Shown here piece by piece: positions 14,316-20,853 of a stretch of 64,000 nucleotides of DNA; within the stretch, counting starts at the first letter, position 1, and each line of letters begins with the position of its first letter. The stretch is taken from the NCBI RefSeq assembly GCF_020618415.1, contig NZ_CP085344.1, forward strand, positions 496,001 through 560,000. The letters are read 5' to 3'. Position numbers and translations under genes: made by a program. This stretch comes from Cupriavidus sp. MP-37. GTDB taxonomy: Bacteria > Pseudomonadota > Gammaproteobacteria > Burkholderiales > Burkholderiaceae. The notes beneath the pieces were generated by a model. That model saw nothing but the letters and a program-made list of their open reading frames with translations. It had not been told where the DNA came from and searched no databases.

Positions 14316-14624
14316 ATGCAGAACCAGAAGATCCGTATCCGCCTGAAGGCTTTCGACTACCGCCTGATCGACCAGTCGGCCGCCGAAATCGTGGATACCG
14401 CCAAGCGTACCGGCGCGATCGTCAAGGGCCCGGTGCCCCTGCCGACCCGCATCCAGCGCTTCGACATCCTGCGTTCGCCGCACGTCAACAAGACCAGCCG
14501 CGATCAGTTCGAGATCCGCACCCACCAGCGCCTGATGGACATCGTCGACCCGACCGACAAGACCGTTGACGCGCTGATGAAGCTCGACCTGCCGGCAGGC
14601 GTGGACGTCGAGATCAAGGTGTAA
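14316..14624 (+). CDS. rpsJ: 30S ribosomal protein S10
   Basis: This 102-residue protein of the 30S head also acts in transcription antitermination as NusE. It starts [20 protein letters not shown] and has the conserved [16 protein letters not shown] segment. It follows tuf on the same strand after 78 bases. It normally heads the S10 operon with rplC directly behind. Here a terminator and an unrelated gene cluster of about 5 kb separate it from rplC, so it is probably transcribed with the str operon. Confidence 0.99.
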
Positions 14625-14660
14625 TCATGCTTCGGGCTGCTTGCGCAGCCTGCTGCAGCA

Positions 14661-14688
14661 AAACGGCGAACCTCGGTTCGCCGTTTTT
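14661..14688 (+). terminator. Intrinsic terminator after rpsJ (possibly bidirectional)
   Basis: AAACGGCGAACC and GGTTCGCCGTTT form a 12-base inverted repeat around TC, followed by TTTTTG. On the minus strand the stem is followed by TTTTG, so it could also stop the convergent araC-type gene. It cleanly ends the str-rpsJ transcript. Confidence 0.9.
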
Positions 14689-14732: not shown

Positions 14733-15746
14733 CTATCCCGCCCCGCGCCGCCGCAGCGTCTGCGCCGGACACTCCCCGAATACCCGCCGATACTCCGCGC
14801 TGAACCGCCCCAGGTGCGCAAAGCCCCAGCGCAACGCCGCTGCACTGACCGATGAAACCGATGCATCGTTCAGCAGATCCCGCCGTACCCGCTCCAGGCG
14901 CACCGCGCGCAGATAAGCCATCGGCCCGGTCCCGCGGTGCTCGCGGAAGCCGGCGAACAGGCTGCGCACGCTGACGCCGGCCACTTCCGCCAGCAGCGCC
15001 GGCGTCAGTTCCGCGCCGGCGTTGGCATGGATGTATTCCTCGACCACCTTCACATGGCGCGGCGCGAGCGGCTTGCCGTGCTCGCGCAGCGCGTCCGACA
15101 GGCTGTGCGGCTGTGCCGTCAGCAGCGTGCCGATCACCAGCTGCTCGAGCTGGCAGGCGGTGAGGGGATGGCGCGCGGTCTCCGGCGCCGCATCGAGCAT
15201 CGCGGCGAGATATCGGATCAACTCATACCAGGCGCCGGTGCGCCACGCCATACCGAGTGCAAAGCGCAGGGCACGCTCGGGCCGGCGGCCCAGGTGGGCG
15301 GCGCAGATCCGGTCGAGCGCGCTGCGCTCGATGCGCACGATCAGCTGGTCGTTGTCCGCGCTCCAGCGCATCAGCAGCGGATCGCTGGGCGTCAGCACGG
15401 AAGCGCAGTCGGGTGTCGACACGATCTGCTGCCCGCCGCAGCGGATCTCCGCCTGCCCGCCGAGCGGCATCTGCACCAGCAGGAAGTCTCCGAGCGGACC
15501 CGGGTCGATGGTGACATCAGCCCCGTAGGCGAGCCGGTTCAGCGACACCGCGCCCAGCGGGGCGTGGTGCATGCGGGCCGACAGGCTGGTCCCGCGGATA
15601 TCGAGCCGGTGTGGCTTGAAGACCCTGCCCACCGCCGCGCGCGTCTGCGCGAGGTCGGTCGAGGCGAACACCTGCCGCCCGGCATCGTGTAGCAGGGCAT
15701 GCGCCAGCGGCGCCGGCGCGCGGGCAGTCGGGGGCAGCTGCAACAT
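14733..15746 (-). CDS. AraC-family transcriptional regulator
   Basis: This 337-residue regulator has an N-terminal effector-binding half of the AraC-binding-like type and a C-terminal double helix-turn-helix (residues about 230-330). The second helix-turn-helix carries the family pattern [25 protein letters not shown] 15746 has an AGAGGAG site 5' of it on the minus strand; a longer upstream frame looks non-coding. It is divergent from the monooxygenase operon across a 278-base region and is probably its regulator, responding to the substrate. It may correspond to iifR/indR-type regulators of indole oxidation genes (inference). Confidence 0.93.
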
Positions 15747-16024
15747 GGTCTCGCTCCTCTGGCGTGGCCGCGGCGCTGGCTGGCATCCACGGCGGCGGGC
15801 CGGGCGCCATGCGCGCAGCATGGTCCACGCAACCACTATAGCGGATCGACCCGCGCGACCCTGGCCCTGCGTTGACCGAAGCCGAACTTTCCTGCACTAA
15901 TCGGATAGCCGCTGCAGCCAGCGGCTAGTTTGCTGCGGTGCGGAGCCACCATCATGGGATCCAGCACGGCAGCGCAACCCTCCACCAGCTGTCAGCCAAC
16001 AGAGAACGACAAGGAGCGCAGGCC
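15747..16024 (+). promoter_or_regulatory. Divergent control region of the oxygenase island
   Basis: On the plus strand, TTGACC (15872-15877) and ACTAAT (15896-15901, preceded by TGC) give an 18-base spacer and an extended -10. On the minus strand, TATAGT (15840 to 15835) is a candidate -10 for the regulator gene. A perfect 9-bp inverted repeat lies at the expected plus-strand start site. AAGGAG (16011-16016) is the ribosome site of the first operon gene. Confidence 0.55.
15906..15927. repeat. 9-bp inverted repeat at the operon start site
   Basis: TAGCCGCTG and CAGCGGCTA are perfect inverted repeats separated by CAGC. The repeat begins about five bases after the candidate -10 box, so it could be an operator or a hairpin at the mRNA 5' end. 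Confidence 0.55.
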
Positions 16025-17254
16025 ATGGGCCAGACTATCCAGATCCAGACCCCCGAAGGCAGTTTCAGCGGCTATCTCGCCACCCCGGCGGCGGGCAAGG
16101 GCCCCGGCATCGTGCTGTGCCAGGAGATCTTCGGCGTCAATGCCACCATGCGCCAGGTGGCCGACTATTACGCCGAAGAGGGCTATACGGTGCTGGTGCC
16201 AGACCTGTTCTGGCGCATCGCGCCCGGCATCGAACTGACCGACCGCGGCGAGGACTTCCAGCGCGCGCTCGGCCTGTATCAGCAGTTCGATGAAGCGAAG
16301 GGCGTGCAGGACGTGGGCGCGGCGCTGGAGACGTTGCGCGCGCGTCCGGAATGCGCCGGCCGGACCGGCGTGCTGGGCTTCTGCCTGGGCGGCAAGCTGG
16401 CCTACCTGGCGGCCTGCCGGCTGCCCGACGTCGCTTGCGCGGTGGCGTACTACGGCGTCGGCATCGAGCACGCGCTGGGCGAGGCCGCCAACGTGCGTGG
16501 CCGCCTGGTGCTGCATATCGCGGAGCAGGACGGCTTCTGCCCGCCGCAGGCGCAGGCCGCGATCCGCGAGGCGCTGGCCGGCCGGGACCACATCGAGACC
16601 TACGTCTATGCCGGCGTCGACCATGCCTTTGCGCGCGCCGGCGGCGAGCATTTCGACAAGCCTTCGGCGCTGATGGCGCACCAGCGCTCGATCGCCGCAC
16701 TGCGACGCGAGATGGGGCCGCACTACGACTTCTCGGCGCTGTGGGACAAGCACTGCGAGTATGAATTCGCCACCCGCGATGTCGATGCAACCATGGCCAC
16801 GATGGTGGCGCAGCCCTATGTGAACCATATCCCGACCATGACCGGCGGCGTAGGCCACACGCAACTGCGCCGCTTCTACCAGCACCACTTCGTGCACAGC
16901 AACCCGCCGGACACGACGCTGATCCCGCTGTCGCGCACGGTCGGCGCCACGCAGATCGTCGACGAGCTGCTGTTCTGCTTCACCCACACCCGCGAGATCG
17001 ACTGGATGCTGCCTGGCGTGCCGCCCACCGGCAAGCGCGTGGAGATCCCGCTGATCGCCATCGTCAAGTTCCGCGGCGACAAGCTCTACCACGAGCATAT
17101 CTACTGGGACCAGGCCAGCGTGCTGGTGCAGATCGGCAAGCTCGATCCGGCGGGTTTGCCGGTGGCGGGTGTCGAGACCGCGCGCAAGCTGCTGGACGAG
17201 ACCCTGCCGTCGAACACGCTGATGGCGCGCTGGCAGCAGAGCGAAGGCAAGTAG
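16025..17254 (+). CDS. Dienelactone hydrolase / SnoaL-like fusion protein
   Basis: This 409-residue cytoplasmic protein has two parts. Residues 1-230 are a dienelactone hydrolase-type alpha/beta hydrolase with a complete Cys-Asp-His triad: Cys120 in GFCLGG, Asp169 in AEQDG and His200 in GVDHAF. Residues about 240-400 look like a SnoaL/NTF2-type alpha+beta barrel. ATG 16025 has AAGGAG eight bases upstream. It is first of four co-oriented genes. In the indole-oxidation clusters I know, the first gene encodes a protein acting on the oxidised indole intermediate; a matching ring-cleavage role here is inferred. Confidence 0.88.
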   Translation: MGQTIQIQTPEGSFSGYLATPAAGKGPGIVLCQEIFGVNATMRQVADYYAEEGYTVLVPDLFWRIAPGIELTDRGEDFQRALGLYQQFDEAKGVQDVGAALETLRARPECAGRTGVLGFCLGGKLAYLAACRLPDVACAVAYYGVGIEHALGEAANVRGRLVLHIAEQDGFCPPQAQAAIREALAGRDHIETYVYAGVDHAFARAGGEHFDKPSALMAHQRSIAALRREMGPHYDFSALWDKHCEYEFATRDVDATMATMVAQPYVNHIPTMTGGVGHTQLRRFYQHHFVHSNPPDTTLIPLSRTVGATQIVDELLFCFTHTREIDWMLPGVPPTGKRVEIPLIAIVKFRGDKLYHEHIYWDQASVLVQIGKLDPAGLPVAGVETARKLLDETLPSNTLMARWQQSEGK

Positions 17255-17331
17255 GCCTGCTGCAGTGACCGGGAGCGGGCCCGCAGAGGCCCGCCCCGCA
17301 CCAGAGACCGGTGACCAACAAGGAGACAACC

Positions 17332-18120
17332 ATGAAGGGATTGCAGGACAAGGTGGCCATCGTCACCGGCGGCGCCACGCTGATCGGCGCGGCCGTGGCG
17401 CGGGCCTTCGTCGAGGCCGGCGCGCGCGTGGCGATTTTCGATATCGACGCCGCCAACGGCGAGCGCGTCGCCGCGGAGCTGGGCAAGGACGCGCTCTTCA
17501 TCGCGGCCGACATCACGCGGGACGCGCAGGTCCGCGATGCGGTCGGCCAGGTCGCGCAGCGCTTCGGCGGCGTCGATTTCCTGGTCAACCTGGCCTGCAC
17601 CTATCTCGATAATGGCTTCCGCTCGAACCGGGCCGACTGGCTGGCGGCGCTCGATGTCAACGTCGTCTCCGGCGTGATGCTGGCGCAGGCGGTGCATCCG
17701 CAGATGCGTGCCCGCGGCGGCGGCGCGATCGTCAACTTCACCAGCATCTCCGCCAGCGTGGCGCAGACCGGGCGCTGGCTTTATCCGGTGTCGAAGGCCG
17801 CGATCGCGCAGCTGACGCGCAGCATGGCGATGGACCTGGCGCCGGACCGCATCCGCGTCAATGCGGTGTCGCCCGGCTGGACCTGGTGCCGGCTGATGGA
17901 CGAGGTCAGCGGCGGCAACCGCGCCCGCACCGATGCGGTGGCCGCGCCGTTCCATCTGCTCGGGCGCGTCGGCGAGCCCGACGAGGTCGCGCAGGTGGTG
18001 CTCTTCCTCTGCTCTGACCACGCCAGCTTCGTCACCGGCGCCGACTATGCCGTCGATGGGGGCTACTCCGCCATGGGTCCGGAACAGAACGTGCCCGCCA
18101 TCGGCAAGCTGGCCGGCTGA
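17332..18120 (+). CDS. SDR-family oxidoreductase
   Basis: This 262-residue short-chain dehydrogenase/reductase has a Rossmann fold with Ser138, Tyr151 and Lys155 (YPVSK) as catalytic residues. The Gly-rich motif reads TGGATLIG, with Leu where the middle Gly usually stands, and the NNAG motif is replaced by NLAC. ATG 17332 follows AAGGAG; an in-frame GTG seven codons upstream is less likely. Asp37 and Asp39 after beta-2 (FDIDA) suggest NAD preference. In an indole-type pathway it would oxidise the dihydrodiol made by the oxygenase (inference from order). Confidence 0.9.
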   Translation: MKGLQDKVAIVTGGATLIGAAVARAFVEAGARVAIFDIDAANGERVAAELGKDALFIAADITRDAQVRDAVGQVAQRFGGVDFLVNLACTYLDNGFRSNRADWLAALDVNVVSGVMLAQAVHPQMRARGGGAIVNFTSISASVAQTGRWLYPVSKAAIAQLTRSMAMDLAPDRIRVNAVSPGWTWCRLMDEVSGGNRARTDAVAAPFHLLGRVGEPDEVAQVVLFLCSDHASFVTGADYAVDGGYSAMGPEQNVPAIGKLAG

Positions 18121-18153
18121 ACGCCCCGCAACCATCCTTCAGGAGACCACGTC

Positions 18154-19395
18154 ATGCGCCAACGTATCGCCATCGTCGGAGCGGGCCAGTCGGGCCTGCA
18201 AATGGCCCTCGGGCTGCAGGCCCATGGCTACCGCGTCACGCTGCTGTCCAACCGCACCCCGGAACAGATCCGCGCCGGCAAGGTCATGTCCAGCCAGTGC
18301 ATGTTCGATCGCGCGCTGCAGACCGAGCGCGAGCTTGGCCTGAACTGGTGGGACGATGCCTGTCCGCCGGTGCAGGGCATCGGCCTGGCCGTGCCGCATC
18401 CCGAGCAGCCCGGCGCCAGGGTGATCGACTGGGCCGCGCCGCTGGACCGGCCGGCGCAGGCGGTCGACCAGCGCCTGAAGATGCCGGCGTGGATGGAGGC
18501 CTTCGCTGCGCGCGGCGGCGACCTGCGCATCGTTGATGTCGGCGTCGACGAGCTGGAGGAACTGACCCGCGAACATGACCTGGTGCTGCTGGCCGCCGGC
18601 AAGGGCGAGATCGTCAGCCGCTTCGAGCGCGATGCGTCGCGCAGCCCGTTCGACCGGCCCCAGCGCGCGCTGGCGCTGACCTACGTGACCGGCATGCTGC
18701 CGCGCGAGCCGTTCTCGCGGGTCTGCTTCAACCTGATCCCTGGCGTGGGCGAGTACTTTGTGTTTCCAGCGCTGACGTTGTCGGGGCCGTGCGAGATCAT
18801 GGTGTTCGAAGGCATCCCCGGCGGCCCGATGGACCGCTGGGCCGAGGCGCGCACGCCCGAACAGCACCTTGCCGAGAGCCTGCGCATCCTGCGCACCTAT
18901 GTGCCCTGGGAAGCCGAGCGCTGCGAGCGCGTGGCGCTGACCGACGACCACGGCATCCTGTCGGGCCGCTTCGCGCCGACGGTGCGCAAGCCCGTGCTGA
19001 CGCTGCCGTCCGGGCGGCTGGTATTCGGCATGGCCGATGCCGTGGTGGTCAACGACCCCATCACCGGGCAGGGCTCCAACAATGCCGCCAAATGCTGCAA
19101 GGTCTATCTCGATGCCATCCTCGGCCATGGCGAGCGGCCGTTCGACCGCGGCTGGATGGAGCAGACCTTCGCCGGCTACTGGCAATACGCCGCCGATGTG
19201 GTGGCGTGGACCAACTCGCTGCTGACCCCGCCACCGCCGCACATCCTGGCGCTGCTGGGCGCCGCGGGGCAAGCGCCGGCGCTGGCGGCCCGCATCGCCA
19301 ACGGCTTTGACAATCCGCCGGACTACTTCCCCTGGTGGACGGATCCGCACGCCTGCCACCAGCTGATCGACCACCACCTGCCGCAGGCCGCCTGA
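18154..19395 (+). CDS. StyA-like FAD-dependent monooxygenase (styrene/indole monooxygenase family)
   Basis: This 413-residue protein matches the oxygenase subunit of two-component group E flavoprotein monooxygenases in length and motifs. The FAD-binding GAGQSG is at residues 9-14, and the C-terminal part has the family block NDPITGQGSNN. Such enzymes use reduced FAD from a separate reductase to epoxidise styrene or indole; indole yields indigo by side reaction. ATG 18154 has an AGGAG site upstream. The reductase gene begins one base after its stop, so the two are translated together. Indole is the favoured substrate because of the neighbours; styrene-like substrates remain possible. Confidence 0.9.
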   Translation: MRQRIAIVGAGQSGLQMALGLQAHGYRVTLLSNRTPEQIRAGKVMSSQCMFDRALQTERELGLNWWDDACPPVQGIGLAVPHPEQPGARVIDWAAPLDRPAQAVDQRLKMPAWMEAFAARGGDLRIVDVGVDELEELTREHDLVLLAAGKGEIVSRFERDASRSPFDRPQRALALTYVTGMLPREPFSRVCFNLIPGVGEYFVFPALTLSGPCEIMVFEGIPGGPMDRWAEARTPEQHLAESLRILRTYVPWEAERCERVALTDDHGILSGRFAPTVRKPVLTLPSGRLVFGMADAVVVNDPITGQGSNNAAKCCKVYLDAILGHGERPFDRGWMEQTFAGYWQYAADVVAWTNSLLTPPPPHILALLGAAGQAPALAARIANGFDNPPDYFPWWTDPHACHQLIDHHLPQAA

Positions 19396-19396
19396 C

Positions 19397-19894
19397 ATGG
19401 ACACCACCCGCCATGCCGCCCCCGCGCTCGATCCGCGCGAATTGCGCCGGGTTTGCGGCCGCTACGCGACCGGCGTCGCGGTCATTGGTGCCTGTACGGC
19501 GCAGCGGCCGGTCGGCATCACCGTCAACTCGTTCGCGTCGCTGTCGCTGGCGCCGCCACTGATCCTGTGGAGCCTGGCCCGGCATTCGCCCAATGCCGGC
19601 CTGTTCGGAGCGGGCGCGCCGTTCGGCATCAGCATCCTGCGCGCGGGCCACGGCGAGCTGGCGCGCCGCTTTGCCACGCCGTCGCCGGACAAGTTCGCCG
19701 GCGTCGGCCATCGCCGCTGCGCGCACGGCGTGCCTTACCTGGACGAGGCGCTGGCGACGCTGTCGTGCCGGGTCGAGCGCGCCGACCCGGTGGGCGACCA
19801 TCTGCTGATCGTCGGCGCCGTCGAAGCGTTCACGGCGGGGGAGGGCGAGCCGCTGGTATTCTATGGCGGCGATTTCGTCCGCATTGCCGCCTGA
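19397..19894 (+). CDS. StyB/HpaC-like flavin reductase
   Basis: This 165-residue flavin reductase-domain protein has the family pattern GRYATGVAVIG, then GITVNSFASLSLAPPLILWS. It is expected to reduce FAD with NADH and supply FADH2 to the adjacent oxygenase. The start is one base after the oxygenase stop, implying translational coupling. It is the last gene of the island. No strong intrinsic terminator was found between it and the rplC promoter. Confidence 0.92.
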   Translation: MDTTRHAAPALDPRELRRVCGRYATGVAVIGACTAQRPVGITVNSFASLSLAPPLILWSLARHSPNAGLFGAGAPFGISILRAGHGELARRFATPSPDKFAGVGHRRCAHGVPYLDEALATLSCRVERADPVGDHLLIVGAVEAFTAGEGEPLVFYGGDFVRIAA

Positions 19895-20025
19895 CGCCCT
19901 GTTTTGCTGTGCCCGACCGGCCGCTCCGAGGCCAGTCCGTCGCCCCGACACCACAACCAGGCAGCGCAAGCGTCACTGCCGCGGCATTCCTGCCTACAGC
20001 ATTGCAGGGAAATCCGCAATTCATA

Positions 20026-20054
20026 TTGCCCTTTCCAAACTGCTGCGATATAGT
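20026..20054 (+). promoter_or_regulatory. Sigma-70-type promoter for rplC and the S10 remainder
   Basis: TTGCCC (20026-20031) and TATAGT (20049-20054) are 17 bases apart. The predicted start is about 20061. It provides separate transcription for rplC onwards, which is needed because rpsJ and its terminator are cut off by the island. Confidence 0.72.
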
Positions 20055-20202: not shown

Positions 20203-20853
20203 ATGAGCCTTGGCCTTGTAGGTCGCAAGGTTGGCATGACCCGTATTTTCACGGACGACGGTGAAGCGATTCCCGTGACCGTGGTCGAGGTCGGCGACAA
20301 CCGCGTGACGCAAATCAAGACGGACGAGACCGACGGTTACACCGCGGTTCAAGTCACCTTCGGCGCACGACGCGCAAGCCGCGTCACCAAGCCGCTGGCG
20401 GGTCACCTCGCCAAAGCCGGCGTGGAAGCCGGCGAAATCATCCGCGAATTCCGTATCGACGCAGCCAAGGCTGCCGAACTGCAAGCTGGCGGTTCGCTGT
20501 CGGTCGACCTGTTCGAAGTCGGTCAGAAGATCGACGTGCAGGGCGTGACCATCGGTAAGGGCTACGCCGGTACCATCAAGCGCTACCACTTCGCCTCCGG
20601 CCGTGCCACCCACGGTAACTCGCGCTCGCACAACGTGCCGGGCTCGATCGGTATGGCGCAGGATCCGGGCCGCGTGTTCCCGGGCAAGCGCATGACCGGT
20701 CACCTGGGCGATGTCACCCGCACCGTGCAGAACCTGGAGATCGCCAAGATCGACGCAGAGCGCAAGCTGCTGCTGGTCAAGGGCGCCATTCCCGGCTCCA
20801 AGAACGGCAAGGTCATCGTTACCCCGGCCGTCAAGGCCAAAGCCAAAGCTTAA
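20203..20853 (+). CDS. rplC: 50S ribosomal protein L3
   Basis: This 216-residue protein binds near the peptidyl-transferase centre and starts 50S assembly. It begins [16 protein letters not shown] and includes the conserved loop [21 protein letters not shown] 20203 is chosen over ATG 20191 because GGAG lies six bases upstream and the product matches the family N-terminus. It heads the transcription unit rplC-rplD-rplW-rplB-rpsS-rplV-rpsC-rplP-rpmC-rpsQ. Confidence 0.98.

Follow-up and report, generated by a model that had tools for sequence, protein, structure and literature searches.

A predicted IifA-type indole catabolic operon between rpsJ and rplC in Cupriavidus

Gene clusters for the breakdown of indole have been described in Acinetobacter (iif), Cupriavidus (ind), Providencia rettgeri, and Pseudomonas savastanoi, and the 64-kb stretch of Cupriavidus sp. 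MP-37 DNA analyzed here (the window; contig NZ_CP085344.1, positions 496,001 to 560,000) carries a five-gene locus that shares features with each of them. The Acinetobacter cluster, iifABCDE with iifR, is described as having the same A-B-C-D order, with an IifA of about 410 residues from the dienelactone hydrolase (DLH) family, a short-chain dehydrogenase (SDR), an oxygenase, a flavin reductase, and an AraC-family regulator; in the account for A. baumannii, IifA is a DLH-family protein of 416 residues, indole raises iifA–iifD, and the AraC-like IifR is required (PMC4577076). The window differs from this system in that it lacks the iifE porin gene, in that the regulator gene lies divergently upstream rather than downstream as in A. 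baumannii, and in that the cluster sits between the ribosomal-protein genes rpsJ and rplC. Since a review describes a role for iifE as ruled out (PMC6221969), we do not count that gene as defining. The ind clusters of strains SHE, IDO, and KK10 come from the same genus; indAB homologues have been reported on the KK10 chromosome (PMC8280871), and the IDO record (L007) has the cluster adjoining rpsJ and rplC, with an oxygenase of 89% identity. The P. rettgeri GS cluster (GS-B, C, D, A, O, E, and R) is likewise described with an SDR, an oxygenase, a flavin reductase, and an AraC-type regulator, but with a PF04199 protein and an FAD oxidoreductase instead of IifA (PMC9871250). The P. savastanoi WHOP region (ipoABC, dhoAB, and whpR) contains homologous genes proposed to act from indole to anthranilate, whereas its split operons, the ant and cat genes alongside, and a regulator reported to repress most operons there set it apart from the window (PMC12538310).

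In the window, iifA, iifB, iifC, and iifD follow one another on a single strand, and the gene for the AraC-family regulator adjoins them (Table 1). An earlier note on this DNA had proposed an indole-oxidation operon from five open reading frames (ORFs), encoding an AraC-type protein, a DLH-SnoaL fusion, an SDR, a StyA-like oxygenase, and a flavin reductase; all five lie where it placed them, and a single base does separate the oxygenase stop codon from the reductase ATG. The flanking genes, tuf and rpsJ on one side and rplC and rplD on the other, were absent from that note. The host genome (6.1 Mb, two contigs) has a single oxygenase match, and the identity of its oxygenase to the nearest named loci (Cupriavidus) reaches 96%. 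Related loci were compared using the best 80 of 541. The identical five-gene order, with araC divergent, occurs in all 18 near relatives (L002–L019, of which 16 carry a Cupriavidus title), and 58 of the 80 loci contain iifA together with genes for an SDR, an oxygenase, and a reductase, so the grouping is not a matter of chance. A tblastn search for the porin gene iifE (MetA-type) gave no match at E 1e-15 in any of the 18 near relatives.

The identity of the cluster follows from its proteins. Against the PDB, the oxygenase scores 634 bits with 7z4x (627 and 631 bits with two mutant-like variants) and 593 bits with 9lrq, versus 154 and 143 bits with 9qi9 and 3ihm (StyA), two styrene monooxygenases of solved structure; the three sequences listed besides 7z4x, its variants, and 9lrq score 143 to 198 bits. 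The closer similarity to true styrene monooxygenases that the earlier note had offered as a counterargument to its own proposal was thus not found. We take 7z4x to be an Acinetobacter indole monooxygenase, its name in the PDB table being the generic “putative dehydrogenase/oxygenase subunit.” The SDR, IifB, has 8eh2 as its top PDB chain (345.6 bits; second best, 150), and the reductase, IifD, has no NCBIfam equivalog above cut-off. For the regulator, the top NCBIfam model is AndR (anthranilate dioxygenase regulator), at 186.6 bits under a cut-off of 350, and the protein is not assigned to it. Neither a PF04199 protein nor an FAD oxidoreductase, the marks of PF04199-type indole clusters, is encoded here, the cluster proteins and the regulator belonging to other families; nor does the host genome (G000) have an isatin-hydrolase-like PF04199 match at E 1e-10, which 12 of the 60 Cupriavidus genomes surveyed do have. 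The gene order is that of iifABCD of A. baumannii, and the features of IifA, IifC, and the regulator are present, in support of the indole cluster first proposed.

The published route runs from indole through indole-2,3-dihydrodiol and 3-hydroxyindolin-2-one to anthranilate (PMC6221969), the IifA reaction to anthranilate being given in a further account as well (PMC10934121). Because indole-2,3-epoxide is named as the unstable product of IifC/IndA enzymes, the dihydrodiol would follow the epoxide, and IifA is described in the same source as a two-domain protein with a SnoaL fold at its C terminus (PMC7225977). The route in the earlier note, from dihydrodiol to hydroxyindolinone to anthranilate, therefore stands as published and is refined here by the epoxide, which it had left out. 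A literature search for a SnoaL–dienelactone hydrolase fusion in connection with indole found none among open-licence PMC papers. HOD and QDO are cofactor-free oxygenases of the alpha/beta-hydrolase type; such enzymes were considered for the DLH domain, and none is among the matches listed. The idea that the DLH-SnoaL gene substitutes for a true IifA, suggested by the name GS-A of the Providencia PF04199 protein, was dropped, as A. baumannii IifA is itself a DLH protein.

We propose that these genes make up a complete operon for indole catabolism of the iif/ind kind (IifA type), a reading to which we assign a probability of roughly 0.92 and which draws on orthology and layout established here, on enzyme steps taken from published homologues, and on regulation and an anthranilate fate that we infer. 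The AraC/XylS-type protein would bind the double half-site and, with indole, turn on iifABCD. With reduced FAD supplied by IifD, IifC would oxygenate indole to the epoxide and thence the dihydrodiol, IifB would oxidize the dihydrodiol to 3-hydroxyindolin-2-one, and the two-domain IifA would open the ring of this compound to give anthranilate with no isatin step; anthranilate would perhaps be consumed through a gene set of 2-aminobenzoyl-CoA-like type at another place on the chromosome. The main substrate might instead be an indole derivative, such as skatole or a plant indole, with the mechanism unchanged. Skatole breakdown is reported for the StyA-like oxygenase of another bacterium (PMC11434297), and the names of the best-matched PDB chains give no substrate, but the order is that of the indole-induced iifABCD, and indigo formation in A. 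baumannii is reported to require iifC (PMC4577076), so that we consider a derivative an unlikely main substrate. A styrene side-chain oxygenation pathway, in which StyAB would epoxidize styrene and the remaining genes would process the epoxide, is highly improbable despite the Smoa_sbd domain of the oxygenase and its 217-bit match to the NCBIfam StyA model, as that score is below half the cut-off of 550, the StyA structure lies 491 bits under 7z4x, the reductase reaches 92.7 bits against a StyB cut-off of 200, and the partner genes are those of indole clusters.

The predicted operator consists of two direct copies of TGCA-N6-GGNTA, the published XylS half-site (PMC4225500). A scan of the window gave two matches at no more than two mismatches, where 0.15 were expected from 20 single-base shuffles; the second (24617, minus strand) lies in a ribosomal-protein region, recurs in most of L002–L019, and was set aside as coding conservation. 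With the period fixed at 20 bases, the operator is found at no more than one mismatch in all 18 near relatives and, at no more than two, in 13 of the 17 testable PF04199-type loci, five loci overall having too little upstream DNA. At up to three mismatches it never appeared in 20 shuffles of each stretch that kept single-base composition, and it was not found in the second clusters that some Cupriavidus genomes carry (L122–L133).

With respect to the fate of ANTHRANILATE, the host genome has no match to AntA (TIGR03228) over the cut-off (best, 107.6 against 671.9 bits); the search used no dedicated model for the three-component (And-type) anthranilate dioxygenase. The same contig encodes an NF006101 bifunctional hydroxylase/oxidoreductase (1441.7 bits; cut-off, 1078), beside which lie genes for an NF006107 enoyl-CoA hydratase (508 bits; cut-off, 330), an acyl-CoA dehydrogenase, and thioesterase-like and Rid-like proteins. 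This gene set resembles the 2-aminobenzoyl-CoA set that strain SHE is said to possess. The benzoate-CoA ligases L211 and L212 were rejected as an anthranilate route, as they sit in two sets that, by their gene order, are presumably box (benzoyl-CoA) genes. The 2-aminobenzoyl-CoA pathway is one of four that the review sets out (PMC6221969).

Several points weigh against a complete operon working as proposed. The regulator, the operator, and the inducer are put forward together as one putative unit, and beyond the 18 near relatives the operator occurs at no more than two mismatches in only 21 of 39 IifA-type loci, at no more than three in 27, and is lacking in 12. The CoA ligase beside NF006101 scores 358.4 bits, just below the benzoate-CoA ligase cut-off of 375.25, and NF006101 itself is named for salicylyl-CoA, on account of which the link from anthranilate to this set is weak. 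Finally, isatin and isatic acid are reported in Cupriavidus strain SHE (PMC6221969), whereas the IifA type is predicted to have no isatin step.

The comparison also separates two kinds of ring-opening gene. Among the best 80 loci, IifA is present in 58 and a PF04199 protein in 21, with both in none and neither in one (L054, at a contig end). An Amino_oxidase/CrtO-like FAD oxidoreductase accompanies the PF04199 gene in 20 of the 21 loci, and its spread is thus wider than stated by the authors of the P. rettgeri report, who place it only in Providencia and have the PF04199 protein, termed arylformamidase-like, give N-formylanthranilate (PMC9871250). In a structure comparison of two of the 21 proteins, L056 and the P. 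rettgeri protein L069, together with L123 from a Cupriavidus second cluster, isatin hydrolase 5nmp was the best match (517, 450, and 402 bits, respectively), and L056 and L123 fall far under the arylformamidase cut-off. From these matches we argue that the PF04199 protein would hydrolyze isatin. In an oxygenase tree (support values not printed), the IifA-type loci form one group, and both the PF04199-type loci and the second clusters of Cupriavidus fall outside it; seven tips are untagged, namely L051 and L054 (contig end), L124, L125, L128, and L129 (second clusters with the PF04199 gene elsewhere), and L133 (distant). Such a second cluster is present in 11 Cupriavidus genomes; in six of these the PF04199 gene immediately follows the gene for the FAD oxidoreductase, and in the other five it lies elsewhere in the genome. 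Indole clusters would accordingly use two alternative ring-opening designs, the IifA type predicted to bypass isatin and the PF04199 type to pass through it, and Cupriavidus sp. IDO (L007, G040) seems to hold one cluster of each. The report of isatin and isatic acid for strain SHE (PMC6221969) weighs against this view.

The 2018 review states that none of the iif-cluster genes is tied to isatin (PMC6221969), a statement that with two designs would hold for the IifA type alone. It also suggests that an isatin hydrolase may act, points out that Cupriavidus is among the indole degraders with genes for this enzyme and that these genes are worth testing, and raises the questions of isatin as an intermediate and of the function of each of the several clusters in strain IDO (PMC6221969). 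The paper on the structure of isatin hydrolase (PMC6117287) does not contain the words cluster, operon, or monooxygenase. Some loci depart from the common arrangements: L133 (G006) represents a third kind of cluster, in the order oxygenase-reductase-SDR (identities of 40%, 41%, and 60%), and the PF04199-type loci L048, L053, and L057 have no recognizable flavin reductase and an SDR match on the opposite strand.

The location of the cluster is conserved in the genus. In the window, 108 bases separate the end of rpsJ from the regulator gene and 308 bases the reductase gene from the start of rplC. In the survey, rpsJ and rplC lie on one contig in 55 of the 60 genomes, the others being G006, G022 (rpsJ not found), and G046, G048, and G051 (neither found). 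The oxygenase gene lies between them in 31 of the 55 (as two pieces in G003), with a gap of 5.5 to 7.5 kb, whereas the gap is 323 to 446 bases in 12, 543 to 713 bases in three (one with a reductase fragment), and 1.7 to 3.2 kb in nine. G006, in which rpsJ and the oxygenase gene share a contig that ends within the reductase gene, is probably a 32nd carrier. All oxygenase matches in the genus of at least 82% identity are at this site, and all others are at 62% or less. In L114 (G019), about 2 kb of additional DNA lies between rpsJ and araC. A search of open-licence PMC papers on the rpsJ–rplC position of ind/iif genes gave none relevant by title among those listed.

Alignment of the window with eight of the 12 known short junctions revealed an inverted repeat after rpsJ and a TTGCCC-17-TATAGT-like element before rplC that are common to the eight, with some base changes. 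The terminator scan found two terminator-like sites against 2.3 expected in shuffles and is by itself no evidence; the promoter scan found two sites against 0.4 expected. The cluster thus occupies the space where one transcription unit has ended and the next has yet to begin, and need not break an operon or disturb ribosomal-protein expression. Between iifD and the rplC promoter (19895–20025), the consensus scan showed nothing resembling a terminator, so indole-induced read-through into the ribosomal-protein genes is possible. The rpsJ–rplC gap looks like a repeated landing site. Outside the genus, 110 genomes of the family were sampled and 100 were measurable, with a gap of no more than 400 bases in 95 and a larger one in five. 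The four of these five loci that were read (L227–L230) contain no iif gene. Their cargo spans 3 to 9 kb and includes molybdopterin dehydrogenase subunits in L227 (G064), an FAD protein in L228 (G073), and an amidase in L229 (G093), L230 (G108) being the fourth; in the fifth locus (G079) the gap is 32 kb.

The nine middle-size gaps in Cupriavidus all retain the iifA gene, while araC and the oxygenase gene are gone or fragmentary, the SDR gene is gone or partial, and the reductase gene is left only in G014. Eight of the nine orphan iifA genes are intact (407 to 409 residues matched, 87 to 96% identity), the copy in G043 being split. On a tree that covers 57 genomes and was built from 12 kb of ribosomal-protein DNA (support below 0.8 at seven nodes, G029/G047/G042 among them), full clusters fall on both sides of the midpoint root, for which reason the cluster is probably old at this site in the genus and has been repeatedly lost, often with retention of IifA, its absence being mostly due to loss. 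Without regain, the orphan state takes about six losses (G047; G057; G043/G024/G034; G020/G033; G014; G038), because the full-cluster genome G019 falls among the last of these, and each orphaning requires deletion on both sides of iifA. Exchange between strains may also have played a part.

Nei-Gojobori dN/dS values for iifA (34 sequences of about 409 codons) are 0.04 to 0.14 in 15 chosen pairs that contain an orphan and 0.03 to 0.11 in 10 chosen full-full pairs, with 0.046 for G024-G034, 0.141 for G020-G033, and 0.072 for G014-G038 between orphans; being pairwise, each value in part predates orphaning. From these low values, iifA without its partners still seems to be under selection, and its product could serve some purpose independent of the cluster. 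The operator upstream of orphan iifA is present with no or one mismatch in four of the nine and with two mismatches in one, and was not found in the other four, of which L105 keeps one half-site.

Orphan IifA could also be retained to serve a second, PF04199-type cluster in trans, opening the 3-hydroxyindolin-2-one ring made there. A second oxygenase cluster is present in seven of nine orphan genomes against four of 32 full-cluster genomes (Fisher p = 0.0004, kinship ignored), or seven of eight against four of 17 within one clade (p = 0.007), and of the 11 second clusters, the five whose PF04199 gene lies outside the cluster all belong to orphan genomes, as do two of the other six. We nevertheless regard service in trans as rather doubtful, as all 11 second-cluster genomes have an isatin-hydrolase-like PF04199 gene somewhere, the genomes with the intact orphans G047 and G057 have no oxygenase match at all, and G043 has both a split orphan iifA and a split second oxygenase gene. 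A stronger form, in which the second cluster has no ring-opening enzyme and borrows IifA, was dropped in view of the same gene in all 11 genomes. The orphan genes, seemingly kept by purifying selection, and the IifA-like fusions that stand alone elsewhere may point to a second role of IifA without its own cluster. That such a role exists, that in it IifA would act on dioxindole-like compounds by a conserved chemistry of its SnoaL-like domain, and that the two ring-opening designs are exclusive, is a joint proposal that we hold to be evenly balanced. Stand-alone DLH-SnoaL fusion genes with no indole oxygenase nearby make up 18 (L136–L153) of the 20 Burkholderiaceae loci sampled (L134–L153), and in L150 and L152 the relatives are without the hydrolase nucleophile and its partner residues, the SnoaL domain being conserved. 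In IifA the cysteine of the DLH domain is C120, and H268, D313, and H358 are among the invariant residues of the SnoaL domain. As a separate matter, the window regulator may have its true start at an internal ATG near 15746.

Table 1. Features of the predicted indole operon and its surroundings (positions in the window)
Feature	Position	Strand	Basis and remarks
rpsJ (ribosomal protein S10)	14316..14624	+	left neighbor, outside cluster; ORF list and sequence; present in 56/60 genus genomes
intrinsic terminator after rpsJ (12-pair stem, T run)	14660..14687	+	consensus scan
AraC/XylS-type regulator (IifR-like)	14733..15836	-	Pfam AraC_binding_2 and HTH_18
predicted operator (direct repeat of the half-site TGCA-N6-GGNTA, period of 20 bases)	15893..15927	+	motif scan, 0 mismatches
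iifA, DLH domain and SnoaL-like domain fusion	16025..17254	+	Pfam DLH and SnoaL_2
iifB, SDR	17332..18120	+	Pfam adh_short_C2; NCBIfam; PDB 8eh2
iifC/indA, predicted FAD-dependent indole monooxygenase	18154..19395	+	Smoa_sbd 4.7e-45; PDB 7z4x 634 bits
iifD/indB, flavin reductase partner	19397..19894	+	Flavin_Reduct 4.9e-35
rplC operon promoter-like site TTGCCC-17-TATAGT	20026..20054	+	promoter scan
rplC (ribosomal protein L3)	20203..20853	+	right neighbor, outside cluster

The kind of cluster found in the window is already known, and the operon is a solid addition to the known family of indole clusters; what the analysis adds is its unusual, conserved location, the existence of orphan iifA genes, and a division of such clusters by ring-opening design. 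The predicted operator is a ready part for testing as an indole sensor. The split between IifA and PF04199 types turns the question of isatin as an intermediate into a cluster-by-cluster prediction, and the orphan iifA genes open a genetic approach to the role of the two-domain enzyme outside indole breakdown.

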